Part shown: piece after piece, positions 17,870 through 35,567 of the stretch
How the letters are laid out: each line of letters opens with the position of its first letter
Position numbering within the stretch: position 1 is the first letter of the stretch
Assembly (NCBI GenBank): GCA_903863905.1
Contig: CAIPDT010000059.1
Span: forward strand, 1 to 57,293
DNA length: 57,293 nt
Source of the DNA: an uncultured Methylococcaceae bacterium
GTDB taxonomy: Bacteria > Pseudomonadota > Gammaproteobacteria > Methylococcales > Methylomonadaceae
Reading direction: 5' to 3'
Translations under genes and position numbers: made by a program
The notes under the pieces: generated by a model
What the model was told of the DNA's origin: nothing
What the model saw: the letters and a program-made list of their open reading frames with translations, nothing else
Databases searched by the model: none

Positions 17870-17931
17870 GTTTCAACGTTTTTTTGTAAAGTAAAACCCC
17901 TTATATACAGTGCTGTGCGGGTACTTTTAGG

Positions 17932-17949: not shown

Positions 17950-18023
17950 CTTATCTACTTATAATTAACAATAACTATCCTCATGGTGAGGGTACAGACT
18001 TACTCATTAGCCTGATAAAACGC

Positions 18024-19670
18024 ATGCAATTAAATCGGAATAAACACGGACATTTCTTTTCATGGGCTCTATGGAGTGGATTTATTTTTTTACCCTCAGC
18101 AGGGTTAGTTTCAGCGGCTGATCAAGTCGCGCCACAAGAGCAAAATCAAGAAGCAGTCGTTTCTCAGGCACCCGCAAAATTTGACCTCTTCGAGTTACGC
18201 GTCAAAGGCAATACCAAATTAGAAACGAAACAAATCGAACGTACGGTTTATCCGTTTTTAGGCCCCAACAAAAGTTTAGATAATGTTGATTTAGCCCGTA
18301 CTGCCTTAGAGGAGTTATATAAGGCTCAAGGGTATCAAACCGTTTCGGTGGATATTCCCGAACAAGATGTAAAAAATGGCGTGGTTTATTTGCAGGTCGT
18401 AGAAGGAAAAGTCTCTCGACTTAAAGTAAAAGATTCGCGTTATTTTTCTATGGGCGCTATTAAAGCCAGTGTGCCTGAGTTGGCAGAAGGCAATGTGCCC
18501 CATTTTCCGACCATGCAAAAACAATTGGCCGCGTTAAGTACTCAGAGTACCGATCGTAAAGTTCAGCCCATTTTAAGGGCGGGTGATACCCCAGGTACCT
18601 TAGAAGTCGATTTAAAAGTAAAAGATGAATTACCATTACACGGACGGGTTGAGTTAAATGGTCGAAATACCTCCTCAACAGAAAGACTGCGATTAGTGTC
18701 GTCATTACATTATGACAATTTATGGCAAAAGATGCATACCGCTTCGTTTATGTATCAAGTTTCTCCTCAAAATAGTGAGCAAGTGGATGTAATGGCGGGC
18801 ACGTATGCACTGCCCCTATTTGACACTGATATGCGCCTTGCTATGTATGGTGTTAAATCATCGTCTAGTTCACAAATCGCGAATGCGGGTTCAATGTCGG
18901 TGATTGGTTTGGGTGATATTTTTGGGGTGCGTTTAATCAAGCCGTTTAACGGTGTGGGTAACTATAATCATAGTTTGACTCAAGGTGTGGATTATAAAAG
19001 CTTTAAAGAAAATATTAATGTGGTAGGTTCAGACACGATCGCCACTCCCATTGCTTATGTGCCATTTTTAACGCAATACAGCGGCAGTTATCGTGGAGAG
19101 CAGTCGTTTCTGTCCTTTGATATAGCCGCGCATTATTCCTTTAGAGGTGTGGGTAACAAACAGTATGATTTTGAACAAAAGCGTGCTAATTCTAAAGCGA
19201 ACTATTTATATTTAACAACAGATATAAAAGGGCAGCATGATTTACCCAAAGGGATGGAAATCAAAACGCATGTTACCGGACATGTCTCCGATTCACCTTT
19301 GATCAGTAATGAACAATACTCGATAGGTGGTGCTTTAAGTGTACGTGGCTATTTTGAAACTCAAGCCTTAGTGGATTCTGGCGTGTTTGGCTCAATGGAG
19401 TTATATTCGCCTAATATTGGTCAATTGGACAGTGAATATTTAAATAACTTTAAGTTCATGACTTTTATGGATGCCGGAAGTGGTTGGGTTCAATCAGCCT
19501 TAAAAGGCAATAAGAATTCATATTCCTTAGCTGGCGGTGGTGCCGGCTTTAATTTTCATATTAAGAAATATCTGATTGCGGCTTTTGATGTGGGCATTCC
19601 GTTTATTTCTTTGGCGCCTGTTAAAGCAGGTGATCCCCGTGTTGACTTTAACGTCGCAACCGAATTTTAA
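18024..19670 (+). CDS. TpsB outer-membrane transporter (ShlB/FhaC family)
   Basis: 548 residues, the usual size for a two-partner secretion porter. Signal peptide to about residue 32 (FIFLPSAGLVSAAD). Two POTRA domains follow: the first around residues 50-125 (FELRVKGNTKLETKQIERTV), the second around 128-205. A 16-stranded barrel should occupy the rest, with the family motif SVRGYFETQ in the region of extracellular loop 6 and a C-terminal aromatic residue (VATEF). It should secrete the TpsA protein encoded 128 bases downstream. The POTRA domains recognise the TPS domain of the partner in the periplasm. Confidence 0.93.
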   Translation: MQLNRNKHGHFFSWALWSGFIFLPSAGLVSAADQVAPQEQNQEAVVSQAPAKFDLFELRVKGNTKLETKQIERTVYPFLGPNKSLDNVDLARTALEELYKAQGYQTVSVDIPEQDVKNGVVYLQVVEGKVSRLKVKDSRYFSMGAIKASVPELAEGNVPHFPTMQKQLAALSTQSTDRKVQPILRAGDTPGTLEVDLKVKDELPLHGRVELNGRNTSSTERLRLVSSLHYDNLWQKMHTASFMYQVSPQNSEQVDVMAGTYALPLFDTDMRLAMYGVKSSSSSQIANAGSMSVIGLGDIFGVRLIKPFNGVGNYNHSLTQGVDYKSFKENINVVGSDTIATPIAYVPFLTQYSGSYRGEQSFLSFDIAAHYSFRGVGNKQYDFEQKRANSKANYLYLTTDIKGQHDLPKGMEIKTHVTGHVSDSPLISNEQYSIGGALSVRGYFETQALVDSGVFGSMELYSPNIGQLDSEYLNNFKFMTFMDAGSGWVQSALKGNKNSYSLAGGGAGFNFHIKKYLIAAFDVGIPFISLAPVKAGDPRVDFNVATEF

Positions 19671-19687
19671 GATTATTAAGGTGTATA

Positions 19688-19747
19688 GACTCAATTCGCT
19701 TTAAACGAGTTGAGTCCTCCTTTTGCTGAGCTTTAGTTTTTGCTCAG
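19688..19747 (+). promoter_or_regulatory. two intercistronic hairpins between tpsB and tpsA
   Basis: Hairpin 1 pairs GACTCAATTCG (19688-19698) with CGAGTTGAGTC (19706-19716), 11 positions with one G-U pair in RNA, then CTCCTTTT. Hairpin 2 pairs CTGAGC (19726-19731) with GCTCAG (19742-19747). Neither has a strong U tract. They could attenuate or process the transcript and so set the ratio of transporter to exoprotein. Confidence 0.45.
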
Positions 19748-19798
19748 TGTGTCACTCATTTATCAGTATTAATACAATTAAGAGTTAAGGTTACAATT

Positions 19799-22700
19799 AT
19801 GAACCACAAACATCAGCCCCTTATGACAAAGTCTTCAGAAGATTTTTTTAGGCTTAAGCCGCTGGCCGCAGCGGTCCGAGTGGTCATTGCCGGAGGTTTG
19901 TTAGTCGGTTCAGGGATTTCAACAGTGAATGCTGATGTTCATGCACCGTTGCCAGAGCCCACCAATATTGTACCGTTGCCTGCAGAAGTGACTAACCCTC
20001 CAGTAGTCATACCTAACATAGCGCATGATATTATTCCTGTTATTGATCAAGCCGCTCATGGCCAAGCAAATGCCGTGATTAATGATCATGTCATGACCAT
20101 TAATCAAATCACTGATAAAGCCACTATTGATTGGAAAAGTTTTAATATTGATAAAGGTTATACCGTTAATTTTGTGCAGCCTTCTTCGGCTTCGGTGGCG
20201 CTTAATAATATTCATCAAGGCGATGCCAGTCAGATTATGGGTTCCATTACCGCCAATGGCCAAGTCTATTTATTTAATCAAAATGGTTTTATTTTTGGTA
20301 AGGATTCAGTAGTCGATACCAATAGTTTAGTGGTGACTGCCCTTAATATCAGTGATGAGGCTTTTAAAGCCGGCATTATTCGAGTGTTTGATGATAATCC
20401 AAACGCCTCTATTGATAAAAAAGCAGCGTTGAATGGTAATACTAACGACCCTAAAACAGCGGTTAATCCTACGGCTAAGATTCAAATTAATAATGGCGCC
20501 CATATTCATGCCAGCAAAAGTGGCAGTGTTATTATGGCTGCTCCAACAGTCGATAACTCAGGATCAATTTCTGCTGATCAACAGGGCCAGGTTATTTTAG
20601 TGGCCAGTCAAGACAAGGTTTATTTGCAACCCACGTCAAGTAAAGATCCCTTCGCAGGCTTATTAGTCGAGGTGGGTTCTGGTGGAACCGTAAATAATAA
20701 TGTCGGTGGTGATGTTGCGGTCAGACAAGGCAATGTAACCTTAGCCGGTTTTGCAGTGAATCAATCCGGTCGTTTAAGTGCGACCACCTCGGTTAATGTG
20801 AATGGTTCTATTCGTTTATTAGCGCGAGAAGGGGCGGCGGATAGTTTTGATCCTAAAACGAATGCGCATAATTTATCGGTTTCAACCACGGTAAGAAGTA
20901 CAGGTGAGACTTCGAGTGTTATGTTAGGTAAAAATAGTTCAGCGACTATTTTGGCGGATGTTGATGGTGGTACCGCTATTGATGAGCAAGCCCAAAAACA
21001 ATCTGTGGTTGAGATTAATGCAAATCAAATTGATATGCAACAAAACGCCAGTATCGTTGCAACTGGTGGCGTGGTTAATTTAACGACCTCAAGTAATCCC
21101 TTAGATGTAGCCAATACTCTTTTAGTGGGGTCGGGTGGGCGTATAGATTTAGAAAGTGGTTCTAAAATTGATGTATCGGGCACCAAAAATGTTCAAGTGG
21201 CCATGGAACGTAATGTGGCAGAGGTCTCAGTACAAAGTTTTAATTTAAGGGATGCGCCATATCAAAAGGGTGGCGTATTACAAGGACAAAAAGTACAAGT
21301 TGATATCCGAAACTTACCGACAATATTGGATGCCAGTACCGTTGCTTCTTCGATTCAGAAAGGCGTTGGAGAGAGATTAACCACGGGTGGGGTTATTAAT
21401 TTAACCTCTGCCGGTGATGTGGTGGTTAATAAAAATGCGGTGACTGATATCTCTGGTGGCTCTGTAAATTACCAAAGTGGCTATATTAATACCACTCAAT
21501 TAGTCACGGCTGCAACAGGGCAAGTGGTCGATATTAGTAAAGCGAACCCTAATTTACAATACTCAGCTATTTTTGGGACTATTAAAGAAACCAGTGTTAA
21601 ATGGGGCACGACTAATACCTTTAATTTAACCGGACTAGGCCGATTTGAAAACGGCTATACGGATGGTAAAGCAGGTGGGGCTTTAAATATTGAAAGTCCA
21701 GTAACCGCATGGTCGGGTCAATTGGTCGCGGGTGCTGTCACGGGTATCAATCAATTAAGTAATCCAGTCTCAGGTGGTTCTTTAGCAATTAACGCCGGCG
21801 ACAATGGTGGCGCAACTAACCCACAACCGGGACAATTTTTCTCGACACAAAATATAACATTTGATGTTAATGCCCCTACGAATTCGATTGGAATCAATGA
21901 CCCGTTACCGAGCACTGATTTAGTCTTAAGCAATCAACTAGTCAATCAATCAGGTATTAGTCAATTAACAGTTAAAACCGCGGGTACGGTGACGGTTGCA
22001 AAAGACGCCAATTTAACGATGCCAGCGCTAAGCAGTTTTAACGTGGATGCCGGTAATATTGATGTTTTAGGCTCTATCAAAACCTCCGGTGGCACGATTG
22101 CTCTAAACGGTATTTATACCGGTATCAGCAATACGGGACAACTTAATTTATTAACGTCTTCTTTATTAGATGTTTCAGGTAATTGGATTAATCAGTTTAA
22201 AGACGGCCTAAGTTCACCTTCTGCGCTAAATGCAGGCAGTGTCAATATTTCGGCGACTAATCGTTTAAACTTTGCTCAAGGTGCACAGATTAAAGCGAAT
22301 GGCGGGGCTAGTTTAGATGTGTCAGGTAATCGAGTCACCGCGGGTTCGGCAGGTTCCATTAAATTACAAGCGGGAACGCACGATATTGAAGGTTTGTTAT
22401 TGGCAGATGGACAGTTATCGGCTTATGGTTTAAATCAAGGTGGCAATTTAACATTGGCCTCTAATAAAATTAATGTGGGCACTCAGGTGGCTGAAGCGAA
22501 TGCCCTTAATTTAAAAGTGACCCATGGTTTATTGGATGTGGCGGCTAATTCAGGATTTAGTTCAATTAGTTTGGTGAGTAATCAACAAGACATTACTGTA
22601 AAAGCTAATACGGCAATTGCGTTAACCGCACAAAATAAAATAATAACGTCAGACTATAGAAATCAACATAATACAAATGGCATTGAAGGTTTTAGTCAAG

Positions 22701-25700
22701 TAGTGACTTTACCCGAAACGCTTCGTAAACCCGTCACGTTAAGCTTAAACGGTTTAACGGGGGTTACCTTGGAAACAGGTAGCCAGATTAATGTTGATAA
22801 AGGTTCTACGGTTAATATATCAACAGAAAACTTGGGTTCTGGATTGTTTCTTAATGGCTTAATTAGTGCGCCTAGCGGTAACATTAATTTAGTTTTAAAA
22901 GCGGATTACACGTCTTTAGCTTATAACGGTTCACAATCTATTTGGTTAGGATCTAACGCTGAATTAAATACTCAAGGTACCAGTTTAATAAACCCAGCTA
23001 ATAATACTGGCTTAACAACGGGTAGTGTGCTTAATGGCGGTAATATTACCTTAAAGGCTGATCGTGGTTATGTGGTAGTCGAAAAAGGTGCCCAATTAAA
23101 TGTGACAGGTACTGAGGTTGTTTTAGATTTGCCAGCACCCACTCCCTCTGGATTTGCTAAAACATTAATTGGCTCTGATGCGGGTAAAGTGGCTATCACA
23201 GCTGCTGAAGGGGTTGTTTTAGATGGTGCTATCTCGGCCAAAGCGGGATCTGCGACTAATTTAGGGGGTAGCTTAAATATAACCCTAGATAGAAACCAAC
23301 GTGGAGAAGCGTTAGGTGCTATTTTTCCGAATAACGCGTTACTATTTAATTTAATTCAAGACACTAAAACACAGTTGCCTATAAGTGCACAATTTAATAG
23401 TATTCCTAGCTTGATGAACGGCTTAGCGACTTTAAGTAGTCAGCAACTCCATGATTCAGGTATTGAGCAGTTAAAACTTTCTGTTCCTGTTCAAAGAGAT
23501 CCTAACGATGGTAGTTTACGTCCTGCAGGGGTTATCAATTTTAACAATGATGTTAATTTAACCTTGGCATCGAGTTTAATTTTAGATGCACCTACGTTGC
23601 AATGGTCCGGTGTTAATGGCCAAACCACCGGGAATGTATCTTTAATTAGTCCCTATTTACAATTGGGTTCTGCCAGTTATAACCAAGTGTTGGATACTTC
23701 TGTTTTAGGCGGTGGAAAGTTAACGACTCAATCACTCACGCAACCAATCAAAACACAATGGACCCAGCTAAATGGGGCTTTATTAATGACGGGTTTTAGT
23801 GATGTTAACCTATCAAGCATTCATGATTTGCGGTTGGTTGGGGTACAAGCGCTCCCAACAGAAAGAACGCTGACTGGAAATCTTAATACCGCCGCTAATT
23901 TAACCTTAAATGCCAGCCAAGTGTATCCAACAACGTTAACGGATTACACAGTCTCAGTGACCAATCCGAGTAGTGTGCTGACTATTGGTGGTCAAAACAC
24001 AGACACTTCGCCATTATCAGCGGCAGGCCGGTTAACCTTTAATGCTTCAACGATTAATCAAAATGGCGTTGTTAAAGCTCCTTTAGGGACGATTGCTTTT
24101 AATGCCACTCAAGCTATTAATTTTGGAGCCAACAGTGTTACTTCAGTATCCGCAAGTGGTCAAACGATTCCATTTGGAACTATTGTTAATAATAACTGGG
24201 TGTACTCTTTACCCGGCAATAATAATCTGATCTTTAATCAGTCGCTATTAAATACAGATACTAATCTTTATGAGTATCTCACCGTGGGTGAAAAGCATCT
24301 GGTCTTTCAAGCACCTAGTATTCAGTTTAACCAAGGCAGTACGGTTGATGTCTCTGGGGGCGGTGATTTATTAGCATATCAATTTCAACCTGGTTTAGGC
24401 GGGTCGAATGATTATTTATTACCAGGCAGTCCCTCTTATCAAGGTGGCTTTGCTATCCTGCCTAGTTTAGGTTCTTCCTTAGCCCCGTATGATCCTAATT
24501 TATCGATTGGCGCTAACGATCCAAGAACCTCCATTTATTTGGGTGGATCTGATACTTTAGCGGCTGGTTTTTATACGGTATTACCGTCTCGTTATGCACT
24601 GTTACCGGGGGCTTTTTTAGTTACGCCACAAGCCAATACGCAAGATCAAGTCTCAACGACTTATAATCAAAATGGTTTAGCGGTCGTTTCAGGTTATCAA
24701 GCTTTAGCGGGGACAAACTCACATGCTTCGAGAACGATGGGGTTTTTGATTGAGTCTTCCGCCGATATCCAAAAACATTCACAATATAACATTCAAACAG
24801 CGAATAGTTTTTTTACCCAGCAAGCACTGACCAATAACAGTAGTATTCCTCTATTACCTGCTGATAGCGGACAAATATCGATTGATGCCAGTACGCGTTT
24901 AGTTTTAGATGGGCAGTTTAAAGTAGCAACCCCTAAAGGGCGTGGTGCGAAAATGGACATTTCAGCTCAAAACATTGAAGTGGTTAACAGTTTAACTAAT
25001 GGCTTAACACCTGGTACCTTACAATTATTGGATCAAAATTTAAGTCATTTGAATGTAGATAGTTTGTTGCTGGGCGGTACCCGACTGACCGATAGTTCTA
25101 CCGGTAATACTCAACTCAATGTCACCGCGAACAATGTGACTTTTGATGCTAACACGCAATTGAAAGGTTTAGATTTATTAGCGACGGCAAAAAACACCAT
25201 TGAAGTAAAAGATGGTGCCTCTTTAGTGAGTAGTGGTCAGGTTAACACCGGTGATTCGGTTTTTAATATGGTGGGTTCGGGGGCTCTTTTACGGGTGTCA
25301 GCGGATAAACAAGTCAGTGTTAATCATACCGTCGGCGCGGCGACAGGTAATTTATTAATTGACCAAAATGCCACTTTAAATGCGTCTAAGTCTATGTTGC
25401 TAGATGCGGGGTCAACAATTTTGACCGGTGATATCGTCATGCGTGGGGGCGCGTTAAATTTAACCTCTAATGCCATTAATATTGGTGATATACCTAATGG
25501 CGTCGGTTCAAATGCTTTGAATCTGACTAATCAACAATTAAGTCATTTCTCAGTGGATGCGTTAGTCTTGAATAGTCATGATGCGGTTAACTTATATGGC
25601 AATGTGGGACAACTGGATGCCCAAGGTAATTTAGGTCCAATCCCGTTTAATAATTTATTAATTGAGGCAGCCGGTTTATCAGGGTATGCCAGTAATGGAC

Positions 25701-28700
25701 AATCAGCCAGTTTAAAGGCTACTCAGTTAGAATTATCCAACCCTTTAAATGCCCAAGCTAATCAAATGGGTAATGGCCAAGGCACATTAAACCTGATGGC
25801 GACTAATTATATTCAAGGTCAAGGAAAGTTTGCGCTTAATGGTTTTAACACGGTTAATTTAAACGTTGATAACGGCGTAGTGGCTGACGGAAAAAGCACA
25901 TTAAACGTAGGGGCTGATCTTAATTTAACGGCTGGATATTTAACGACCACTGGGGGTTCAAGTTTAGCGGTAGATGCTAGTGGGCATCAATTAAACGTTA
26001 TGGGTAACAATACCGTCATGGCTACAAACTCCCAAGTCTTAGGTGGCAGTATATCAATGGTGGCCAACGCGATTCAATTTAATACCAACGCGATTATGTC
26101 ATCAGGTCTATTAAATCTTCATGCCCTAACGGGGGATGTGTTAGTGGACTCTAAGGCTAATATTAATTTAGCAGGACAAGCATTTACGTTTGCTGATGTG
26201 GTTGATTATACGCCGGGTGGTACTTTCTCTGCTCAGGCTGATCAGGGTGCTATTAAACTAGCCAGCGGTTCACTTGTTGATATCAGTTCGGGCGGTGCTA
26301 CAGCGGCAGGCGGACATTTTAATCTAAAAGCCACTACCCAAGACGTAACGTTAGCAGGGCAACTTAAAGCCACGGGCGGCAGTGCTTCGGTGGATGTCGC
26401 TCAATTTAGTGTAGGAACGACTTTTGATCAATTAATCACTCAATTAAATCAGGCGGGAATTAATAGTACGCTCGCCATAAGAAGTCGAGTGGATAGTATG
26501 ATAGAAGCCGCTAATACGGTTATAAACGCGAACAACATTAATTTGGCTTCTGATAAAGGGGCTGTTGATATTTTTGGTCAGTTAAATGCGAATGGTCAAG
26601 CAACCGGTGGCAGTATCAATCTATCAGCCGGTGATAAAGTGACACTAGAAGGGGGAAGTTTACTCTCTGCAACGGGCGATAATGGTGGAAAAGTGTCATT
26701 GTCTTCGGTTGATTCAACATTAGTTAATCACAGTGGTGTAGAACTTAAAGCCGGTTCGACGATTGATGTGACCGGTAAAAATGGTACCGGTGGTGTAGTC
26801 ACACTCAGTGCGCAAAGAATGGCCACGGCCGATGGCATAAATATAAAACCGATAGCAGGGACAGTGACTGGTGCCAGTCAGTTCTACGCGGAAGGGCTTA
26901 AAAAATATAATGCTTCTCTCATTGATAGTACTTTGATCAGTACAATCAATGCGGATACGCTTAACTATATGAATGCCTCTACTAACTCTGTCGCCGCCTT
27001 AGGTGCGGGTTTAACCTTAAAACCAGGTGTCGAAGTTGATTCAATAGGTGACTTAACGTTAGCCACTGCTTGGGATTTTTCTAACATGAGCCAACCGGCC
27101 AGTGGTTCGGCCATTATAGGCGATCTTACTTTACGCGCTGCGGGACAGTTAGATGTCAATAAATCTTTATCGGATGGTTTTAAAGTCACTTCGGGTGTAC
27201 AAGGTCTATTGAATAATGGCGAATCTTGGTCATTTAACTTAGTGTCAGGCGCTGATATGAGTAGTGCTGATAAATTAGCGACCATTGCTTTAACGGATGC
27301 TGAGAAATTGGCCGCATCTTTATCAAAAGATTTAGTGCTGGGTTCGGGTGCCAGTGTTCACACAGGCTCGGGTAATATTAATTTAGCCTCGGGCGGCAAC
27401 TTGGTTTTTACAAATCAAACCTCTACCGTTTATAACGCAGGCAGATCAAATAGCAGTAATCCGTATGGGGGGTTAGCGGCTAATAAGAGACCGGTCGGTT
27501 ATTATCCCGTGGAAGGTGGTGATTTAGTGATACGTGCCGATGGCGATATAAAAGGTGCGGTGAGTAATCAATTCTTGGCGGGTTGGTTAAATCGTCAAGG
27601 GACTGTTGTGTCTACACGAGCCAGTAGAAATACGGTGACCGCTTGGAGTGTAGATCCCTCTCAATATCAAGAAAACATTGGTTCTTTCGGTGGAGGTAAG
27701 GTTGATATTAGCGCAACCGGTAATATTAATGACCTCTCTGTGATGATGCCTACGACCGGTAAACAGTTAGGAACGTCTGTTGCGGATAATAATGTTCAGG
27801 TCTTAGGCGGCGGGCAAATGCAGGTCACTGCCGGCGGTGATATTATGGGTGGTGCCTATTATTTAGGTAAAGGTGAGGGTGTGATTAGTGCGGCCGGTAA
27901 AATTACGGGTAGTACCTCTTCAGATCCTAATGCGTTTGTGAGTGGTCCACAATTAATCATGAGTGGAGATCAAAATGACCCACTAAATGGAAATAGTCAT
28001 TTATCCCTAAATGCGGGTACAGGTATTAAAATTTCAGCGGTATCTGATGCTATGGTTTTAAAAGTGGATAGCCCAGAGTTTTTTACGTATACGAATAACA
28101 GTCAGTTAACCTTAAAATCCTTGGCTGGAGATGTTAATTTAAATGCGGATACGCGGGTTGAAACAAATTTAATTGGGATGACGAATCCGAATGAAATCCA
28201 GTTAACTAAAGTGTATCCTGCTTCATTAAATGTAACCGCGTTTAATGGCAATGTCTTATTAAATAACGATATTATATTATTTCCATCGCCTGTTTCTAAT
28301 ATGAATATCTTTGCACAACAAGCGATTACTTCATCAACGGGGCAAAATAGTTTTATTATGTCGGATGCTAATCCGGCGTTATTACCTAATATGTATTCCA
28401 CGATTAACGCCGCCAATGATCAAAAGCTTATTGATGCAGCCAGTGTTTTTAATACAACCGCCATTAATGCCAGTGGGATTCCTGGAGTATCAAAAGGTGG
28501 TGCAAGTCCTTTAATTCATGCCAACACGCCTATTCATAGTGCTGATACTCAACCCGCGCGCTTAGTCACCCAATTAGGTGATATTTCTGCCGTGCAGATG
28601 GTGTTGCCTAAACAAGCCATTGTGCAAGCAGGGCGAGATTTAATTAACAGTCCGATTCAAATTCAACAAATCAATCAGGCCGACACCTCTATTATTGCGG

Positions 28701-29980
28701 CAGGACGCGATATTATCTTTGTGACTGATTTAGATCGAAATGGCGTGCCGACTGACAAAAACAGTGCGTATCAAATATTAATCAGCGGTCCGGGTGATAC
28801 ATTAGTTAAAACCGGAAGGAATCTTGATTTAGGGGCGTCGGTAGGTTTAACAACAGTGGGCAACCTATATAACTCAGCCTTACCCAGTGTGGGAGCTTCT
28901 TTAGATGTGTTAGTCGGGTTAAATGCCGGAACGCCGAGTTATGCCGCCTTTATTGATAAATATTTAAATAATAATCCTTTATACCTCAGTGAGTTTAGTC
29001 AGGTTAAGTCGATTATTACTGCTTTTATTAAGCAAAAAACTGGGGACATGACTTTAACAGATGATCAAGCGTTAACGTCCTTTGGACATTTAACAGGTGA
29101 TCAAACTTTAGCCATTCAGCCTCAATTAAATTCATTGCTTACCAAAGTTTTTTTTAATGAATTAAAAATAGCGGGCTCTGCTTCAGCGTCTGATAAATCT
29201 AAGGGTAATAAAGGCGGCTTTGAGGCGATCGATACTTTATTTCCAGGGAATCAATGGCAAGGGAACTTAAGTTTGTTTTTTAGTAAATTACAAACAGTGA
29301 GTGGTGGCAATATTAATTTATACGTTCCCGGCGGACAAGTAAATGCCGGTCTGGCCGTGGCGCCTAGTGGTTCTGGTGCAAAGACGGCTGATAAGTTAGG
29401 AATCGTGGCTCAGCAAACAGGCGATATTAATGCCTTTGTAAAAGATGATTTTACCGTTAACACGTCAAGGGTATTTACCTTAGGTGGCGGTGATATATTA
29501 ATTTGGTCATCTGAGGGCAATATCGATGCGGGTAAAGGCGCAAAATCAGCCTTAGCGGTATCTGTCGATGCACCTTATTACGATTCTAATAATCAGTTAG
29601 TCATTCCAGCGCCAAAAATTACCAGTGGGAGTGGTATTCGTACCGCCGCAAGCCCTGGCGTACAGGCGGGTGACGTATTCTTATTTGCGCCTCATGGGGT
29701 TGTAGATGCGGGTGAGGCGGGTATTGGTGGAACTAACGTAACCATTTCTGCAACTGCAGTCTTGGGGGCTAATAATATTTCGGTCGGTGGGGTGAGTACT
29801 GGGGTTCCTCAGGCTTCAACGGGTAGTATGGCGGCGGGCTTAACAGGTACCAGTAATTTAACCGCGAATGTAAGTCAAACGGCTCAAACGACGGCTACAA
29901 AAGATGATGAAGATGAAAAGAAAAAGAAAAACACTATGTTGGGTATGTTGAGTGTTGAAGTTTTGGGTTTTGGTGAGTAA
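19799..29980 (+). CDS. giant TpsA exoprotein (filamentous haemagglutinin family)
   Basis: 3393 residues. An extended signal peptide (about 1-46, AAAVRVVIAGGLLVGSGIST near its core) precedes the TPS secretion domain at about residues 75-330, with VNFVQPSSASVALNNIHQGD, SITANGQVYLFNQNGFIFG and the VDTNSLVVTALNIS stretch. The rest is a long right-handed beta-helix of short glycine/asparagine-rich repeats. Near the C-terminus a block resembling DUF3739 is visible (GGGDILIWSSEGNIDAGKGA, GDVFLFAPHGVVDAGEAGIG). It ends with a charged stretch (DDEDEKKKKN) and the hydrophobic tail MLGMLSVEVLGFGE. It should be secreted by the neighbouring TpsB to the cell surface, acting as an adhesin or in another unknown role. 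No toxin domain is seen. Confidence 0.93.
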   Translation: MNHKHQPLMTKSSEDFFRLKPLAAAVRVVIAGGLLVGSGISTVNADVHAPLPEPTNIVPLPAEVTNPPVVIPNIAHDIIPVIDQAAHGQANAVINDHVMTINQITDKATIDWKSFNIDKGYTVNFVQPSSASVALNNIHQGDASQIMGSITANGQVYLFNQNGFIFGKDSVVDTNSLVVTALNISDEAFKAGIIRVFDDNPNASIDKKAALNGNTNDPKTAVNPTAKIQINNGAHIHASKSGSVIMAAPTVDNSGSISADQQGQVILVASQDKVYLQPTSSKDPFAGLLVEVGSGGTVNNNVGGDVAVRQGNVTLAGFAVNQSGRLSATTSVNVNGSIRLLAREGAADSFDPKTNAHNLSVSTTVRSTGETSSVMLGKNSSATILADVDGGTAIDEQAQKQSVVEINANQIDMQQNASIVATGGVVNLTTSSNPLDVANTLLVGSGGRIDLESGSKIDVSGTKNVQVAMERNVAEVSVQSFNLRDAPYQKGGVLQGQKVQVDIRNLPTILDASTVASSIQKGVGERLTTGGVINLTSAGDVVVNKNAVTDISGGSVNYQSGYINTTQLVTAATGQVVDISKANPNLQYSAIFGTIKETSVKWGTTNTFNLTGLGRFENGYTDGKAGGALNIESPVTAWSGQLVAGAVTGINQLSNPVSGGSLAINAGDNGGATNPQPGQFFSTQNITFDVNAPTNSIGINDPLPSTDLVLSNQLVNQSGISQLTVKTAGTVTVAKDANLTMPALSSFNVDAGNIDVLGSIKTSGGTIALNGIYTGISNTGQLNLLTSSLLDVSGNWINQFKDGLSSPSALNAGSVNISATNRLNFAQGAQIKANGGASLDVSGNRVTAGSAGSIKLQAGTHDIEGLLLADGQLSAYGLNQGGNLTLASNKINVGTQVAEANALNLKVTHGLLDVAANSGFSSISLVSNQQDITVKANTAIALTAQNKIITSDYRNQHNTNGIEGFSQVVTLPETLRKPVTLSLNGLTGVTLETGSQINVDKGSTVNISTENLGSGLFLNGLISAPSGNINLVLKADYTSLAYNGSQSIWLGSNAELNTQGTSLINPANNTGLTTGSVLNGGNITLKADRGYVVVEKGAQLNVTGTEVVLDLPAPTPSGFAKTLIGSDAGKVAITAAEGVVLDGAISAKAGSATNLGGSLNITLDRNQRGEALGAIFPNNALLFNLIQDTKTQLPISAQFNSIPSLMNGLATLSSQQLHDSGIEQLKLSVPVQRDPNDGSLRPAGVINFNNDVNLTLASSLILDAPTLQWSGVNGQTTGNVSLISPYLQLGSASYNQVLDTSVLGGGKLTTQSLTQPIKTQWTQLNGALLMTGFSDVNLSSIHDLRLVGVQALPTERTLTGNLNTAANLTLNASQVYPTTLTDYTVSVTNPSSVLTIGGQNTDTSPLSAAGRLTFNASTINQNGVVKAPLGTIAFNATQAINFGANSVTSVSASGQTIPFGTIVNNNWVYSLPGNNNLIFNQSLLNTDTNLYEYLTVGEKHLVFQAPSIQFNQGSTVDVSGGGDLLAYQFQPGLGGSNDYLLPGSPSYQGGFAILPSLGSSLAPYDPNLSIGANDPRTSIYLGGSDTLAAGFYTVLPSRYALLPGAFLVTPQANTQDQVSTTYNQNGLAVVSGYQALAGTNSHASRTMGFLIESSADIQKHSQYNIQTANSFFTQQALTNNSSIPLLPADSGQISIDASTRLVLDGQFKVATPKGRGAKMDISAQNIEVVNSLTNGLTPGTLQLLDQNLSHLNVDSLLLGGTRLTDSSTGNTQLNVTANNVTFDANTQLKGLDLLATAKNTIEVKDGASLVSSGQVNTGDSVFNMVGSGALLRVSADKQVSVNHTVGAATGNLLIDQNATLNASKSMLLDAGSTILTGDIVMRGGALNLTSNAINIGDIPNGVGSNALNLTNQQLSHFSVDALVLNSHDAVNLYGNVGQLDAQGNLGPIPFNNLLIEAAGLSGYASNGQSASLKATQLELSNPLNAQANQMGNGQGTLNLMATNYIQGQGKFALNGFNTVNLNVDNGVVADGKSTLNVGADLNLTAGYLTTTGGSSLAVDASGHQLNVMGNNTVMATNSQVLGGSISMVANAIQFNTNAIMSSGLLNLHALTGDVLVDSKANINLAGQAFTFADVVDYTPGGTFSAQADQGAIKLASGSLVDISSGGATAAGGHFNLKATTQDVTLAGQLKATGGSASVDVAQFSVGTTFDQLITQLNQAGINSTLAIRSRVDSMIEAANTVINANNINLASDKGAVDIFGQLNANGQATGGSINLSAGDKVTLEGGSLLSATGDNGGKVSLSSVDSTLVNHSGVELKAGSTIDVTGKNGTGGVVTLSAQRMATADGINIKPIAGTVTGASQFYAEGLKKYNASLIDSTLISTINADTLNYMNASTNSVAALGAGLTLKPGVEVDSIGDLTLATAWDFSNMSQPASGSAIIGDLTLRAAGQLDVNKSLSDGFKVTSGVQGLLNNGESWSFNLVSGADMSSADKLATIALTDAEKLAASLSKDLVLGSGASVHTGSGNINLASGGNLVFTNQTSTVYNAGRSNSSNPYGGLAANKRPVGYYPVEGGDLVIRADGDIKGAVSNQFLAGWLNRQGTVVSTRASRNTVTAWSVDPSQYQENIGSFGGGKVDISATGNINDLSVMMPTTGKQLGTSVADNNVQVLGGGQMQVTAGGDIMGGAYYLGKGEGVISAAGKITGSTSSDPNAFVSGPQLIMSGDQNDPLNGNSHLSLNAGTGIKISAVSDAMVLKVDSPEFFTYTNNSQLTLKSLAGDVNLNADTRVETNLIGMTNPNEIQLTKVYPASLNVTAFNGNVLLNNDIILFPSPVSNMNIFAQQAITSSTGQNSFIMSDANPALLPNMYSTINAANDQKLIDAASVFNTTAINASGIPGVSKGGASPLIHANTPIHSADTQPARLVTQLGDISAVQMVLPKQAIVQAGRDLINSPIQIQQINQADTSIIAAGRDIIFVTDLDRNGVPTDKNSAYQILISGPGDTLVKTGRNLDLGASVGLTTVGNLYNSALPSVGASLDVLVGLNAGTPSYAAFIDKYLNNNPLYLSEFSQVKSIITAFIKQKTGDMTLTDDQALTSFGHLTGDQTLAIQPQLNSLLTKVFFNELKIAGSASASDKSKGNKGGFEAIDTLFPGNQWQGNLSLFFSKLQTVSGGNINLYVPGGQVNAGLAVAPSGSGAKTADKLGIVAQQTGDINAFVKDDFTVNTSRVFTLGGGDILIWSSEGNIDAGKGAKSALAVSVDAPYYDSNNQLVIPAPKITSGSGIRTAASPGVQAGDVFLFAPHGVVDAGEAGIGGTNVTISATAVLGANNISVGGVSTGVPQASTGSMAAGLTGTSNLTANVSQTAQTTATKDDEDEKKKKNTMLGMLSVEVLGFGE

Positions 29981-30093
29981 ATGTAGGTAAAAGCGTCTAA
30001 ATTTAGCCAATAGAGGCCTAGTTTGCGTTGCGTAATAATAATGTAATGAATCTTTGTGATAATTATCTCATTGATTTTCAAAAGAGAGAAATA

Positions 30094-31902
30094 ATGAAAC
30101 GGTTAGGCTTTATATTAGTAATTCTTATGTTAATTCCGTCTTTAGCTTCCGCTTGGTGGAGTGATGACTGGGGCTATAAGAAAAAAATTACCCTAGATGT
30201 ACAGAAACTAAAGCAAGATAATGTAACGATACCCGCGTCGTCTTATGCCTTGATCAGATTACATACTGGCAATTTTTCGTTTTTTGCAGATTTAGCTGAA
30301 AAAGGTAAAGACTTGCGGGTGTTGGCAGCAGATGAGCAAACACCGTTAAAGTTTTATGTTGAAAAGTTAGATCCCGCTAATGAAATGGCTTTTATCTGGG
30401 TTAAATTACCAGAAGAGTTAGCTAAAGAATCTGAGCCCGCTATTTGGTTATATTATGGTAATCAAAAAGCCGTAGATGCTCAGGATGCGGCAGGTTCTTT
30501 TGATGTTAATCAAGTGCTTAGTTTACCTATTACAGCCAATGAAGCAAAAGACTTAACGGCTTATGGTAATAATCCAACGGAAGTCACCTCTACTTTTTCA
30601 GAAGGTGGTTTAATTGGTCAAGCCGCCGTATTTACGGGTAGTCAAGTGATTCGCGTGCCGGCGACTCCATCGTTACAAATGTCTCCAGCGGCAGGTTGGA
30701 CGGTGTCTACTTGGATCAAAATAGATCAATCCCAAACTAATGGCGTAGTGTTACAAAGATCAGGTGCAGGTGGCAATGTGACCTTGTCTGTGGTGGGGCA
30801 AACCGCTACTGTAGAAGTTGAAGAAGGTTCAAAACAAACATTTCAAGCGCCGACTCCATTATCTGCTGGTGTTTGGCATCATTTAGCGTTAACGGCTAAC
30901 TTTAATAGTTTAATTTTATACGTGGATGGTGTGGCCGCGGGTTCATTGGGTGTTTCAACACGTGATTTAACCAGCAATATTGCAATTGGTTCTGACGAAT
31001 ACGGTAAGCGTGGCTTAATAGGTCTGTTAGATCAATTTTCTATTTATAAAGTCGCTTTAGATGCAAATGCCATAAAGTTTGATGTTGAAATGCAAGGCCA
31101 AACAGTCACTTTATTAACCTATGGTGAAGATAGTACGCCTGATACAGAAGAGGGCGGTGAATCTTTAATCATGGGCTCACTTAAAAACGTAACCACAGAT
31201 GGCTGGGTCATTATCGGTATCTTGGGTGTTATGTTTGTGGTTAGTTGGTTAGTGATGATTATTAAGGCGGTTGTGCTTAGTAAAGTCCATAGCGAAAATA
31301 AAAAATTCGAGGAAGCTTATAGTCGGCTAGGGAATCAAGATATTAGTAACTTAAATACCGAAGGCGATGATGATGAAGAGTATGAAGAGGAGGAGGGTTC
31401 TTTATTAAACTTAACTAAAGCCCACGGTTCGTTTACGGGTTCAACGATTTATCGTATCTATCATGTCGGTGTTGAAGAAATGAACCGTCGGTTAAAAACA
31501 GCGCCTGATGGTTCAGGAAACCAATTGGTGTTAACACCCCAAGCGATGAATGCGGTTAGAGCCACAATGGATGCGAAATTAATCCGTGAATTACAAAAAT
31601 TAAATTCACAAATGGTATTGTTAACTATTGCGATCAGTGGTGGCCCTTTCTTAGGATTGTTGGGAACAGTTATTGGGGTAATGATTACGTTTGCGGCAAT
31701 TGCAGTGAGTGGTGAAGTTAACGTTAATGCGATTGCACCGGGTATTGCCGGCGCTTTAACAGCGACGGTTGCTGGGTTGATTGTTGCGATTCCTTGCCTA
31801 TTTGGTTACAACTATTTAGGCGGTCAAATTAAAGAAATTACGGCAGACATGCATGTATTTGTGGATGAGTTTGTCGCTAAATTATCCGAGCAACATACTT
31901 AA
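30094..31902 (+). CDS. exbB: DUF2341-LamG-ExbB fusion, proton-channel subunit with a periplasmic lectin-like domain
   Basis: 602 residues from the ATG at 30094, preceded by AGAGAGAA. Signal peptide to about residue 19 (LMLIPSLASAWW). A DUF2341 domain follows (WWSDDWGYKKKITLD, AIWLYYGNQKAVDAQDAAG), then a LamG/concanavalin-like domain at about residues 165-335 (GWTVSTWIKIDQSQ, GVWHHLALTANFNSLILYVD). The last 240 residues are an ExbB/TolQ/MotA channel: a membrane helix near 372-390, an acidic cytoplasmic loop (EGDDDEEYEEEEGS) and two C-terminal helices (GPFLGLLGTVIGVMITF, IAGALTATVAGLIVAIP). It should form a proton channel with the ExbD encoded next. Typical ExbB has about 240 residues, so the large ectodomain is unusual. 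Confidence 0.88.
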   Translation: MKRLGFILVILMLIPSLASAWWSDDWGYKKKITLDVQKLKQDNVTIPASSYALIRLHTGNFSFFADLAEKGKDLRVLAADEQTPLKFYVEKLDPANEMAFIWVKLPEELAKESEPAIWLYYGNQKAVDAQDAAGSFDVNQVLSLPITANEAKDLTAYGNNPTEVTSTFSEGGLIGQAAVFTGSQVIRVPATPSLQMSPAAGWTVSTWIKIDQSQTNGVVLQRSGAGGNVTLSVVGQTATVEVEEGSKQTFQAPTPLSAGVWHHLALTANFNSLILYVDGVAAGSLGVSTRDLTSNIAIGSDEYGKRGLIGLLDQFSIYKVALDANAIKFDVEMQGQTVTLLTYGEDSTPDTEEGGESLIMGSLKNVTTDGWVIIGILGVMFVVSWLVMIIKAVVLSKVHSENKKFEEAYSRLGNQDISNLNTEGDDDEEYEEEEGSLLNLTKAHGSFTGSTIYRIYHVGVEEMNRRLKTAPDGSGNQLVLTPQAMNAVRATMDAKLIRELQKLNSQMVLLTIAISGGPFLGLLGTVIGVMITFAAIAVSGEVNVNAIAPGIAGALTATVAGLIVAIPCLFGYNYLGGQIKEITADMHVFVDEFVAKLSEQHT

Positions 31903-31931
31903 AATCGGCTTAATAAGACCCTCTTAATCCA

Positions 31932-31964
31932 GTGCGTTAGCTTAATACCGTTAAGTTAACGCAC
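31932..31964 (+). promoter_or_regulatory. intercistronic hairpin between exbB and exbD
   Basis: GTGCGTTAGCTTAA (31932-31945) pairs with TTAAGTTAACGCAC (31951-31964) over 14 positions with one G-U pair in RNA, around the loop TACCG. There is no U tract (CCCTAATTTT follows), so it is more likely a stabilising, processing or attenuating structure than a full terminator. It lies 30 bases after the exbB stop and 24 before exbD. Confidence 0.55.
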
Positions 31965-31987
31965 CCCTAATTTTAAATAGCAACTAT

Positions 31988-32392
31988 ATGAAGTTACAAG
32001 AAGAAAATGCGGCCTATGATGAAATCAACGTCACCCCGATGCTTGATTTGGCCTACGTATTGTTGATTGTATTTATCTTGATGACAACAGCCGCCGTTCA
32101 AGGTGTGCAAGTGAATCTACCTAAAGCCAGTAATACCCCCAGTTTATCTAAACCTCAAACTAAAGCCATTACTGTGACGTCAGATGGGACTTTGTTTTTG
32201 GATACTTTTCCGGTCACTATGGAACAACTTGAAACGACTTTAATGCAATACAAAGCCGTTAATCCTGCTTTACCTGTCGTGGTAAAAGGGGACGCGAGTG
32301 TGCAGTATCAGAGTGTGATTGATGTCTTGGCCTTACTTGGAAAACTTGAAATTACCCAAGTAGGACTCGTAACACAAAATTTGGTTAAGTAA
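31988..32392 (+). CDS. exbD: ExbD/TolR-family biopolymer transport protein
   Basis: 134 residues, the normal ExbD size. A short cytoplasmic N-terminus with INVTPMLDLAYVLLIVFILM holds the single membrane helix and the conserved proton-carrying aspartate (PMLD, about residue 19). The periplasmic domain (about 45-134) includes ITVTSDGTLFLD and VVVKGDASVQYQSVIDVL, both family signatures. It partners the upstream ExbB fusion and the TonB-like protein 15 bases downstream. The arrangement indicates a Ton system dedicated to this locus. Confidence 0.93.
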   Translation: MKLQEENAAYDEINVTPMLDLAYVLLIVFILMTTAAVQGVQVNLPKASNTPSLSKPQTKAITVTSDGTLFLDTFPVTMEQLETTLMQYKAVNPALPVVVKGDASVQYQSVIDVLALLGKLEITQVGLVTQNLVK

Positions 32393-32407
32393 GGTTTTAA
32401 ACGAATT

Positions 32408-33061
32408 ATGTTAAAAAAGAAAAAGCCTAAAAGTATCATTCCAAAAGTACTGGGTGGCTTAGTATTGTTAGCGGGTATTTTTTATGTCGTTAAAGTCATT
32501 GTTGATTTTGCCAGTGAAAAACCTGTAAAGCATGAAAAGAAGATTCAGACCATTGATTTGGTTAAGCCACCGCCACCGCCACCACCGCCACCTAAGGTAG
32601 AGCCACCGCCACCTGAGCCGGAAATGGAAAAGCTCGAAGAACCAGAGCCCGATCCAGAACCGTTACCGGATGTTCAAGATCAACAGCCGGCAGGTGACAC
32701 AGGTTTAGACGCTGAAGGCACGGCGGGTTCTGATGCGTTTGGCATGGTAGGTAAAAAAGGTGGTCGAGGACTCTTAGGAGGTGGCGATCCGAATGCCGGC
32801 TATGCGACGAGCATTAAGGAAAGTTTAATTGATATTTTGTCTGAACATGAAGAATTAAGACGAAAAAGCTATTCGGCGGTGATAAAGATTTGGTTAACAC
32901 CCGAAGGGAATGTGTCTCGCTTTGAACTGTCAAGGGGCAGTAATGATGAGGACATCGATAAGCTTTTAAATAAATTAGTGTCTCAATTTAAAAAGGCAAA
33001 AGAACCGCCGCCACCGGGCATGGCACAACCGATTAAATTTAAGATTTCATCAAGAATGTAG
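32408..33061 (+). CDS. tonB: TonB-like energy transducer
   Basis: 217 residues. A basic N-terminus (MLKKKKPKSIIPK) is followed by one membrane helix (VLGGLVLLAGIFYVVKVIV, about 14-32), then a proline-rich periplasm-spanning stretch with a run of nine prolines and PEPDPEPLP, then a glycine-rich segment, then a TonB C-terminal-type domain (about 135-217: SAVIKIWLTPEGNVSRFELS). It should couple the ExbB/ExbD proton channel to an outer-membrane partner. No TonB-dependent receptor is encoded beside it; the nearest outer-membrane candidates are the porin directly downstream and TpsB. Confidence 0.87.
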   Translation: MLKKKKPKSIIPKVLGGLVLLAGIFYVVKVIVDFASEKPVKHEKKIQTIDLVKPPPPPPPPPKVEPPPPEPEMEKLEEPEPDPEPLPDVQDQQPAGDTGLDAEGTAGSDAFGMVGKKGGRGLLGGGDPNAGYATSIKESLIDILSEHEELRRKSYSAVIKIWLTPEGNVSRFELSRGSNDEDIDKLLNKLVSQFKKAKEPPPPGMAQPIKFKISSRM

Positions 33062-33141
33062 TTTTTGGTTAGACCCCTAAAACGAACACTGCTTGAGTTA
33101 ACAATTACACGCTTTATATTTTATATTTGCAGGAAATAACT

Positions 33142-34911
33142 ATGGATCACAAAAAACCGCTCATCGCTCTCGCATTACTTTGCGTGGCTGGCTTATCACA
33201 AGCGGGTGAGAAGGAAGAGTTGCTAAAATTACGCAATACGACCACAAGCCTGATTAATCAGTTAGTTAAACAAGGCATCTTGACCGATAAGATGGCGGCT
33301 GAAATGATTAAACAAGCGGAAACTGATGCCAATCAGCAAGTGGCTGAAGCGAAACAAGCAACCACTAAAGAAGCGGTTCCTGCAGATGAAGTTAGAGTCG
33401 CTTATGTGCCTGATTTTGTCAAAGATCAAATTCGCCAACAAGTTCGCTCTGAATTAAAAGAGGAAGTGGTTGCTGATGTGATGACTAAAGCCAAAGCTGA
33501 GAAATGGGGCTTACCGGGCGTTTTACCAGATTGGGTCAATCGATTTAAATTATCGGGTGATATTCGTTTAAGAGAGCAATCTACTTTTATGGCGTCTGAT
33601 AATACGCCTATTGGTAATTATTACGATTGGCCAACGATTAATGGCAATAATGGTGGTATGTATCCGAGTGCTGCTAACTCGGAAGTTAATACCCGCAGTG
33701 ATCGAAATCAGGGTCGTGAACGCTTACGTTTAGGCATTGACGCCAATATTGTTTCTGGTGTAGATGTGGGTGTCCGCTTAGCAACGGGTAATATATCAAA
33801 TCCTATTTCAACCAATCAATCAATGGGAAATATGGGTGGGCGATATACCTTCAATATTGATAGAGCGTATTTAAGATATAACGCAGTTGATGATACCAAA
33901 TTTAATTGGTTAACCTTAATGGGTGGGCGTACTCCTAATCCATTCTTTACTGGTAGTAGCGAGTTAGTTTGGGACGAAGATTTGTCCTTTGAAGGTGCTT
34001 TTGGAACTATTCGTCATCGTTTAGTTGATTCAGGGTTGTCGAGTGCGGGTGAAAGTAAAGGACCTACGGTGTATGCCACGGCAGGTATTTTTCCTTTGCA
34101 AGCTTCAACGGGTTTAAGTACGCGTGATAAATGGTTAGTGGGTGGTCAAACTGGTTTAGATTGGGGTTTTGCGAATCAAGACTCTTTAAAGTTAGGCGCT
34201 GCGTATTTTGATTATCAAAATATCACTGCTAAGATTGACCCTTTAATTTCAAGTGGTGGGGCCTTACCTTTATCATGTAATGCAGTGAATGCAGAAAGTT
34301 TGCAATCGGTTCCAATGTTTATGCAATCGGGTAATACTTTGGTTCCGGTGTGTGGTGCAAATGGAAATTCATCGTATCCTGGCTTAATGGGATTAGCGTC
34401 TAACTATGAGATTTTAAACTTTAATGCTCTGTATGATTTGGCGTTATTCTCTCCGCATCACCTCAAGTTTAGTGGAGATTTTGCTAAGAATCTTGGCTTT
34501 AATTCAAATAATATTGCTAGAAATTATAGCAATATCTATGGGATGACTTATGGGGGCATCGCTACAGCCGGCATTCTTAATAACCCTTTAAGTAATGCAA
34601 GCACTATAGGTTGGCAAGTTAAAGCCGAAGTTGGCTGGCCCAAAGTTGATGTGGGTGGACATTGGAATGTGTTCTCATTGTATAAACAAGTCGGTAGTGA
34701 TGCGGTATTGGATGCCTATACGGATTCGGACTTTCATCAAGGTGGTGCCAGTAACCTAGGTGGCACCAATGTTAAAGGTTGGGTTGTTGGGGGGAGTTAC
34801 GGCTTAATCAAAAATGTATGGTTAACCGGTAAGTGGTTGAGTGGTGATGTCATTACTGGGCCTAAATACGGTGTTGATTTAATGCAACTTGATCTTAATG
34901 CGCATTTTTGA
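33142..34911 (+). CDS. putative outer-membrane porin with coiled-coil N-terminus
   Basis: 589 residues from the ATG at 33142, preceded by AGGAAATAACT. Signal peptide to about residue 21 (LALLCVAGLSQAGE). Residues 25-75 are a predicted coiled coil (ELLKLRNTTTSLINQLVKQG), a helical arrangement known in putative porins that may anchor to the cell wall. From about residue 130 (FKLSGDIRLREQS) a beta-barrel follows with alternating strands, and the protein ends in phenylalanine (LDLNAHF), typical of BAM substrates. The type fits the family annotated as putative porin. It may admit the solute served by this locus. It overlaps the following gene by one base. Confidence 0.8.
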   Translation: MDHKKPLIALALLCVAGLSQAGEKEELLKLRNTTTSLINQLVKQGILTDKMAAEMIKQAETDANQQVAEAKQATTKEAVPADEVRVAYVPDFVKDQIRQQVRSELKEEVVADVMTKAKAEKWGLPGVLPDWVNRFKLSGDIRLREQSTFMASDNTPIGNYYDWPTINGNNGGMYPSAANSEVNTRSDRNQGRERLRLGIDANIVSGVDVGVRLATGNISNPISTNQSMGNMGGRYTFNIDRAYLRYNAVDDTKFNWLTLMGGRTPNPFFTGSSELVWDEDLSFEGAFGTIRHRLVDSGLSSAGESKGPTVYATAGIFPLQASTGLSTRDKWLVGGQTGLDWGFANQDSLKLGAAYFDYQNITAKIDPLISSGGALPLSCNAVNAESLQSVPMFMQSGNTLVPVCGANGNSSYPGLMGLASNYEILNFNALYDLALFSPHHLKFSGDFAKNLGFNSNNIARNYSNIYGMTYGGIATAGILNNPLSNASTIGWQVKAEVGWPKVDVGGHWNVFSLYKQVGSDAVLDAYTDSDFHQGGASNLGGTNVKGWVVGGSYGLIKNVWLTGKWLSGDVITGPKYGVDLMQLDLNAHF

Positions 34912-35567
34912 TGAGACCGGACATGATTAGAATCAGACAACTTGTCGTTATATCTGTTTTGCTCACGGCGGCATTAAGTGTCAGTGAGGCGCTTTCTGCT
35001 CCGCGTCCAGCGGCAGATGCCAACAATAAAGCCTTGGCTAAACTTCAGGCCTCTGTAAAAGACATAACCTCTGAGCGTGATACCTTAAAAACTGAGAAAG
35101 ATAAAATAACAGCTGAATTAGAACAGCTCAAGAAGGCGAAAGAGCAGGCTGCTACTAATGAAGAGCGTTTAAACGCAGAATTGCAAGCTCAGAAAAACAC
35201 CAACTCAACAGTCAGTGGCACCTTAGAGCAAACTCATGCCAAGTTAGTTGAGGTCATTGAAAAATACAACAACTTAAATAAAGCTAAAAATGAGTTAACT
35301 GCAACCTATACACAATTAGATGCGACTCAAAAACAAACCAGTACCGAATTGCAAACATGTGAAGCTAAAAATATTAAATTGTATGACGCAGGTAAAGAAG
35401 TGCTAGCACACTATGAAGGTAAAAACGTGTTTGACAGCGTCTTGAAAGCTGAGCCAATATTACAATTTAAATCAGTCGAATTAGAAGGTCTTGTGCAGGA
35501 ATATGAAGATAAATTGCGTAGTCAAAAGTATCAGCATAAAGAACCTGTTGCTCAAACATCGAAATAA
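34911..35567 (+). CDS. exported coiled-coil protein of unknown function
   Basis: 218 residues from the ATG at 34911 (TGATG overlap with the porin stop). An ATG at 34923 would give a cleaner signal peptide (MIRIRQLVVISVLLTAALSV). Residues 40-140 are a long heptad-like coiled coil (LAKLQASVKDITSERDTLKT, ITAELEQLKKAKEQAATNEE). The C-terminal 70 residues include LYDAGKEVLAHYEGKNVFDS and LEGLVQEYEDKLRS. I know no function. As the last gene of the TPS-Ton run it is probably a periplasmic or envelope accessory protein. Confidence 0.75.
   Translation: MRPDMIRIRQLVVISVLLTAALSVSEALSAPRPAADANNKALAKLQASVKDITSERDTLKTEKDKITAELEQLKKAKEQAATNEERLNAELQAQKNTNSTVSGTLEQTHAKLVEVIEKYNNLNKAKNELTATYTQLDATQKQTSTELQTCEAKNIKLYDAGKEVLAHYEGKNVFDSVLKAEPILQFKSVELEGLVQEYEDKLRSQKYQHKEPVAQTSK

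Follow-up and report, generated by a model that had tools for sequence, protein, structure and literature searches.

A two-partner secretion block with its own ExbB-ExbD-TonB motor and a stalked porin in an uncultured Methylococcaceae bacterium

Two-partner secretion (TPS) is the textbook form of outer-membrane export without an energy source. The closest described relative of the locus analyzed here is the Pseudomonas aeruginosa cluster pdtA-phdA-pdtB-exbB2-exbD2-tonB4-PA0696-PA0697 of the PUMA3/sigma-VreI regulon (PMC7035377, PMC2729926). We have analyzed a 57,293-nucleotide contig of an uncultured Methylococcaceae bacterium (CAIPDT010000059.1, positions 1 to 57,293 of the forward strand; henceforth the window), in which a block of seven genes at 18024-35567 has the same components in nearly the same order, and appears likewise linked to phosphate. 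A preliminary description of this DNA had pointed to PdtA and PdtB beside exbB2 and exbD2 in P. aeruginosa, and that link is real.

PA0696 of P. aeruginosa has been described as a putative porin (PMC7035377, PMC2729926). That PUMA3 is associated with TPS, ExbBD and PA0696 homologs in a few other genera was noted as early as 2009 (PMC2729926), and the TonB system of the pdt cluster was 'still uncharacterized' in 2020 (PMC7035377). We found no mechanism for that system in the parts of the literature searched, and a search for DUF3739, the domain that caps our TpsA, returned no paper. The comparison is one of published descriptions rather than of PAO1 sequences, and in the parts consulted these do not mention the putative ConA-like crown of ExbB, the TpsA tail, the short TpsB N terminus, the porin stalk motif or the genome-wide co-occurrence described below. 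The regulators also differ. No vreAIR genes were found among 30 scanned open reading frames (ORFs) of the window, and PhoR with a probable PhoB lies beside the block instead; VreA-VreI-VreR occurs in some other relatives.

Several other systems share features with the block. In HMW1 and HxuA a C-terminal segment is thought to remain periplasmic and to hold TpsA in TpsB (PMC5422565). That anchor is a disulfide loop, whereas the TpsA of the window has no cysteines, which rejects a disulfide anchor, and has a strand-like tail and a motor. The HxuCBA heme capture system similarly joins a TPS operon to a TonB-dependent function (PMC5422565), but uses a TonB-dependent receptor, and none was found at the window block. 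The ExbB/TolQ, ExbD/TolR and TonB C-terminal families of TonB-ExbB-ExbD and TolQRA are all present, although the ExbB of the block carries a DUF2341-LamG part. Finally, the model of the porin finds its best Foldseek match in OmpM1, an attachment porin of Veillonella, but unlike OmpM-type tether porins it has no SLH domain match.

Seven genes in one direction had been listed in the preliminary description, and their order and types are borne out by ORFs, translations and Pfam matches (30 of the 45 window ORFs of at least 100 amino acids were scanned). All lie on the forward strand. TpsB (18024-19670, 548 amino acids) has POTRA_2 (60.9 bits, cut-off 24) and ShlB barrel (51.5 bits, cut-off 22.7) matches, a VRGY motif, about 21 residues between the signal peptide and POTRA1, and a match to CdiB (6wim). 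The exoprotein TpsA (19799-29980, 3393 amino acids) has an N-terminal TPS secretion domain (20081-20773) and a DUF3739 cap (29486-29809), and its final 11 residues, MLSVEVLGFGE (29945-29977), form a conserved motif behind a low-complexity linker. Next come the fusion (30094-31902), matching DUF2341, Laminin_G_3 and MotA_ExbB, and ExbD (31988-32392), matching Pfam ExbD. TonB (32408-33061) has a hydrophobic segment, a proline-rich stretch and a TonB_2 C-terminal domain, and the porin (33142-34911) covers the full Porin_5 profile. The exported coiled-coil protein (34911-35567) holds the position of PA0697 and has a conserved C-terminal block; its only Pfam matches are coiled-coil-like, all below cut-off. 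The likely starts of the fusion (30094, ATG), the porin (33142) and the coiled-coil protein (34911) are slightly off the ORF starts. The Pdt/ExbB2-ExbD2-TonB4-type content (TPS, ExbB, ExbD, TonB, porin and coiled coil) is complete in one block, and the channel region is conserved, going by the residue roles generally ascribed to these proteins.

Co-occurrence of the motor with the secretion genes

The loci that we name are the best 80 of 557 confirmed, with flanks of at most 10 kb, or less where a contig ends. The nearest relatives of the block among them are in Methylococcales. Their flanks contain ExbD at all 80, a TonB-profile match at 77, the porin at 74, the coiled-coil protein at 70 and TpsA or TpsB at 69. 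At 10 of the 11 loci with no TPS gene detected in the flank DUF3739 is found in the genome, and only for L126, in a metagenome-assembled genome, was it not found. At L147 the frame length suggests that its DUF3739 is a truncated ORF just upstream that the profile missed. A block on a Methylomagnum plasmid was considered as a TPS-free counterexample and rejected, since a DUF3739 TpsA lies about 17 kb beyond the fusion on that plasmid. The order of the TPS genes varies (TpsB-TpsA, TpsA-TpsB, divergent or distant), and ExbB-ExbD-TonB-porin-coiled coil is mostly constant.

The class was sampled evenly, giving 274 genomes. DUF3739 is above cut-off in 18 of these and the fusion is present in 18, with 17 having both; a Fisher test was run on these counts. 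Fusions were chosen by hand from match tables, and contig-edge fragments in two genomes (G101 and G555) were counted as fusions; behind that of G101 lie the ExbD, TonB, porin and coiled-coil genes. One genome whose DUF3739 match was below threshold (G223) was left out of the count. The two discordant genomes are G104 (85% complete), where only the fusion was found, and G200 (64% complete), where only DUF3739 was found, the gene in each case lying less than 600 bases from a contig start. Among 349 genomes of the phylum DUF3739 is found in 11 and the fusion in the same 11, G555 through its fragment. Full-length Porin_5 matches (above 450 bits) occur in exactly 19 genomes of the class, which are the union of the DUF3739 and fusion genomes, and the remaining Porin_5 matches are partial.

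The block is more than chance, because it recurs across genomes, and a chance neighborhood is rejected by the genome co-occurrence. Lineage as the sole cause is weakened by five hand-picked pairs of genomes within families, in which DUF3739 and the fusion differ together; operon transfer, including on plasmids, can explain part. We conclude that the motor belongs with the TPS machine. The preliminary description had suggested that the association may be old and functional, and had proposed co-occurrence of Ton and TPS genes as its test; the association proves to be widespread and close, and rare co-occurrence is refuted. A TpsA family that is almost never apart from its own proton-driven motor either challenges the textbook picture or defines a new TonB client.

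Second copies of the motor alone, without TpsB or porin, are present in three genomes (G136, L040/L041; G150, L048/L049; G119, L060/L061). From the ORFs, that of G119 reads as lying within an apparent type II secretion cluster, beside a small TpsA-like protein, and that of G136 behind V-ATPase-like genes. Small proteins comprising a near-bare TonB-like C-terminal domain, several with a signal-like N terminus, lie near the system at eight loci (L071, L095, L100, L102, L103, L107, L111 and L118) of Burkholderiales and others.

The TpsA tail and the number of passengers per motor

A new feature of these TpsAs is that, as read from their sequences, they end behind a loose linker in a conserved, strand-like C-terminal tail. 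The linker is of low complexity. We scored 48 TpsAs with intact C termini, comprising that of the window and 47 from fetched loci, some of which are truncated at their other end, and in 43 of them the tail segment outscored every other position of its own protein. Variants such as SWLEVFVxGLG gave low tail scores. In a held-out test a matrix trained on 23 TpsAs from other loci was applied to 12 genomes, where 54 TPS-domain hits were followed, 48 of them to a stop. The 48 C termini scored at least 10.3 in 18 cases and at most 1.5 in 30. The same split (18/0 and 0/30) came from a DUF3739 profile from which both the tail and the 12 genomes had been left out. The tail marks the 18 DUF3739 TpsAs as against the 30 other TPS proteins of these genomes. 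The possibility that the tail is an effect of size was rejected, as TPS proteins of up to 5729 amino acids lack it.

Each of the 12 held-out genomes has a single fusion. Rhodoblastus has nine TPS hits, five of them tailed TpsAs, but a single fusion and a single TpsB frame found with the ShlB profile. The one fusion of Burkholderia sp. Bp8963 is on contig C111, whereas its three tailed TpsAs are on C150. Judged by such gene counts, several tailed TpsAs can share one motor. In R. palustris and Janthinobacterium, Llamas et al. described in 2009 (PMC2729926) PUMA3 clusters that contain tpsA genes and are repeated, together with one tpsB-exbBD-PA0696 block, an arrangement that fits this pattern. 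Each of the five tailed TpsAs in Rhodoblastus stands behind a separate cassette encoding a protein with a TonB-like domain, a sigma factor and a FecR-like protein. Among 17 stretches surveyed the full cassette was found in six and a FecR match alone in one.

The possible client of the motor

The model of the fusion has a mean predicted local distance difference test score (pLDDT) of 84. It opens with a helix resembling a signal peptide, after which come a beta-rich part at approximately residues 20-350, mostly near 90, and TolQ/ExbB-like helices. Foldseek matched the first part to folds that we class as ConA-like, in line with the LamG match from Pfam, and the motor part to E. coli TolQ (9ddm_E, template-modeling (TM) score 0.84 by target). 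Because the folds are ConA-like and then TolQ-like, and with the topology of ExbB, each ExbB subunit probably carries the modeled beta sandwich as a crown in the periplasm. DUF2341 has been mentioned as an A-subunit appendage of unknown function (PMC12505986).

Between the signal peptide and POTRA1 the TpsBs of the system (56 rows, one gene appearing twice) have a median of 21 residues, often rich in Ala and Pro, against a median N-terminal extension of 60 in 15 of the 16 other TpsBs fetched from these genomes; the signal peptide was cut by a simple rule, and sequences were read directly. The plug helix H1 is common in TpsB and dispensable in FhaC. It is predicted in the N-terminal region of most TpsBs (PMC5422565), and most TpsBs of the system appear to be short where others carry the plug-helix region. 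A TonB box in the TpsB N terminus was sought and rejected, with no conserved motif seen.

We calculated partial rank correlations with bootstrap intervals over the 49 loci having all six proteins, values that are hints and not contacts, shared history being not fully separable. The positive control, the ExbB motor part with ExbD, gave r = 0.54 (0.32 to 0.75). The ConA part covaried with the coiled-coil protein (r = 0.48, 0.25 to 0.62) and the TpsB barrel with the porin barrel (r = 0.35, 0.13 to 0.53). TonB covaried with the TpsB barrel (r = 0.25, 0.08 to 0.38) and the POTRA domains (r = 0.20, 0.05 to 0.34), and was not detectably correlated with the porin stalk (r = 0.11, -0.12 to 0.33). Further values were r = 0.23 for the ConA part with the porin barrel and r = 0.18 for ExbD with TonB, and the ConA part does not track the motor part to which it is fused (r = 0.02).

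The interpretation that we tentatively favor, at a little short of an even chance, is that the TonB-type motor works on the two-partner system itself, gripping the periplasmic tail of TpsA and/or TpsB so that the exoprotein is held, pulled or released. The giant TpsA would be exported by TpsB, and its strand-like tail, on the flexible linker behind the DUF3739 cap, would remain periplasmic and anchor the fiber in the TpsB pore. TonB, driven by ExbB-ExbD and the proton gradient, would grip the tail and/or TpsB, and the force would keep TpsA in place, put it under tension, retract it or in the end let it go, so that TpsB could take on another passenger. The crown of ExbB, ConA-like in fold, and the coiled-coil protein may connect the motor with TpsB and the porin as a pair in the outer membrane, and most TpsBs would have little room for the usual plug helix while the tail holds the fiber. 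The preliminary description had left the client as the porin, TpsB or TpsA. TpsB and TpsA are favored by the tail, by one motor for several TpsAs, by the mostly short TpsB N terminus and by the covariation of TonB with TpsB, and the porin is kept open by its stalk motif.

A more specific form of this proposal is possible, though on balance doubtful. The tail pattern presumably resembles TonB boxes, and would be a handle of that kind, by which TonB pulls the C terminus of the exoprotein using the proton gradient to give an energized type Vb fiber that can be retracted or released. VreA-like TonB-like domains, encoded beside individual TpsAs in some genomes, would read the same tail to report whether their own TpsA is out. 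The tail is one short peptide, and its binding partner is directly testable. A partner would give a role to the uncharacterized ExbB2-ExbD2-TonB4 of P. aeruginosa and to the odd TonB-like domain of VreA.

A number of observations count against action of the motor on the two-partner system. Type V secretion is regarded as independent of an energy source (PMC5422565), and insertions in PA0695 (the tonB homolog), tpsA, tpsB or PA0696 left vreI-overexpressing P. aeruginosa with wild-type virulence in zebrafish (PMC2729926). The porin is as constant as the motor, and given the motor-only copies the motor can have another client. TonB correlates negatively with the ExbB motor part (r = -0.15, -0.29 to -0.02), which warns against over-reading such numbers, and 8 of the 55 distinct TpsBs of the system have an extension of at least 49 residues. 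The tail is not the top-scoring segment in 5 of the 48 TpsA rows (L053, L092, L104 and two pieces of L152). Random 130-amino acid windows of TpsA (n = 1140) reach 11.5, with a 99th percentile of 9.2, so that the weakest of the 18 tails (10.3, in G280) rests on its position and its DUF3739 cap. One of the 30 tail-less ends, at L241, runs into masked bases. In Rhodoblastus three shorter TPS frames end without a tail, and one more runs off its contig. Moreover the tail and DUF3739 belong to a single homologous clade, so conservation of the tail need not mean binding to the motor.

The main rival is energized uptake through the stalked porin, which we consider unlikely. TpsA would capture a polymer or phosphorylated substrate outside the cell, TonB would open or drive the porin through the stalk consensus VRVPYVPE so that the captured material is imported, probably under phosphate limitation, and the tail would only anchor TpsA. 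The distribution of the full-length porin, in exactly the 19 class genomes of the system, favors this, and HxuA/HxuB/HxuC is a known capture system combining TPS with TonB dependence (PMC5422565). The porin model (mean pLDDT 82) has an N-terminal helical stalk, presumably periplasmic, with two helices, a low-confidence stretch at residues 74-80, the motif VRVAYVP (33391-33411) and two more helices, and then 16 strands by our own count. In the family the motif is near-invariant (Y, V and P each at least 90%) and adjoins a predicted disordered linker. We examined 11 motorless Porin_5 relatives; one of them, L177, is truncated at the start, and none of the other 10 has the motif. A stalk wholly absent from other porins was dropped as an idea, as the motorless L172, L174 and L175 keep a shorter helical N terminus. 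PhoR and a PstS-like gene adjoin the block, and levels of PdtA and PA0696 in P. aeruginosa increase when phosphate is limiting (PMC9769906). Against uptake, no Pho-box-like site was found near the tpsB promoter (17866-18023) with up to three mismatches allowed, and a Pho box at tpsB was rejected; across the window there are 14 such matches, above all 100 shuffles. A scan of 81 downstream ORFs brought no conspicuous cargo transporter to light (25 of 92 families listed); the commonest were peptidyl-prolyl isomerases (11), TPR (5) and YbjN (5), and TonB covaries with TpsB rather than detectably with the stalk. Nor was a plug domain or TonB-dependent receptor found. The preliminary description had stated that none is encoded, and this holds for the 30 scanned window ORFs. 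A linked receptor elsewhere, which that description had named as an outcome that would refute its idea, was likewise not found in 121 stretches, with a weak detector that recovered three of six known receptors in a leave-one-out control. The source genome has six Plug hits, none on this contig, which could still be clients of the motor.

An improbable alternative is that shared regulation by phosphate or cell-surface signaling keeps the genes together, and that the motor does general envelope work, such as linking the outer membrane to the wall through the stalked porin, like Tol-Pal or OmpM. The TolQ-like fold of the motor part and the existence of motor-only copies are consistent with this, as is the closest solved fold of the porin, OmpM1 (8byt, TM score 0.70 by target and 0.39 by query, 14% identity). 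However, Porin_5 is the only Pfam match of the window porin, with no SLH or wall-binding domain, the DUF3739 TpsA tracks the motor even from other contigs, and the five Rhodoblastus TpsAs have a sensor cassette each yet one motor in common. Least probable is that the tail, which is short, strand-like and near the C terminus, is an export or assembly signal that works independently of the motor and pairs with the TpsB POTRAs, domains that bind extended amphipathic segments (PMC5422565), or caps the beta-helix as translocation ends, with the motor serving another step, for this leaves unexplained why co-occurrence with the ExbB fusion and the stalked porin is nearly perfect.

Transcription and neighboring genes

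Transcription of the block probably begins downstream of a terminator-like stem at 17836-17865, and the unit may extend through an RTX gene (35600-37765, forward strand, possibly co-transcribed) to a stem and T-run at 37791-37817; such terminator-like stem patterns are about equally frequent in shuffled sequence. Strong hairpins without good T-runs lie in the tpsB/tpsA gap (19688-19716) and the exbB/exbD gap (31932-31964), and may split the unit or set different levels of expression.

The stem at 17836-17865 separates tpsB from a gene on the same strand for a PstS-like protein (16200-17792, weak matches). Such a protein is encoded directly upstream of the TPS genes in many relatives (L034, L036, L042, L044, L051, L054, L056, L058, L062 and L072), and this recurrent neighbor suggests a link to phosphate. 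The reverse strand, divergent from the block, encodes PhoR (11773-13056) and next to it a response regulator (13057-13815) that is probably PhoB.

The products of 15230-16162 and of the RTX gene, one either side of the TPS block, have a 240-residue domain in common, N-terminal in the RTX protein, with 56% identity. One ends in a PEP-CTERM-like anchor and the other in RTX repeats, providing two surface routes for one domain. Further upstream, at 380-6005, two cytochrome d1-type genes accompany one that encodes NirDL-like and AsnC-type domains.

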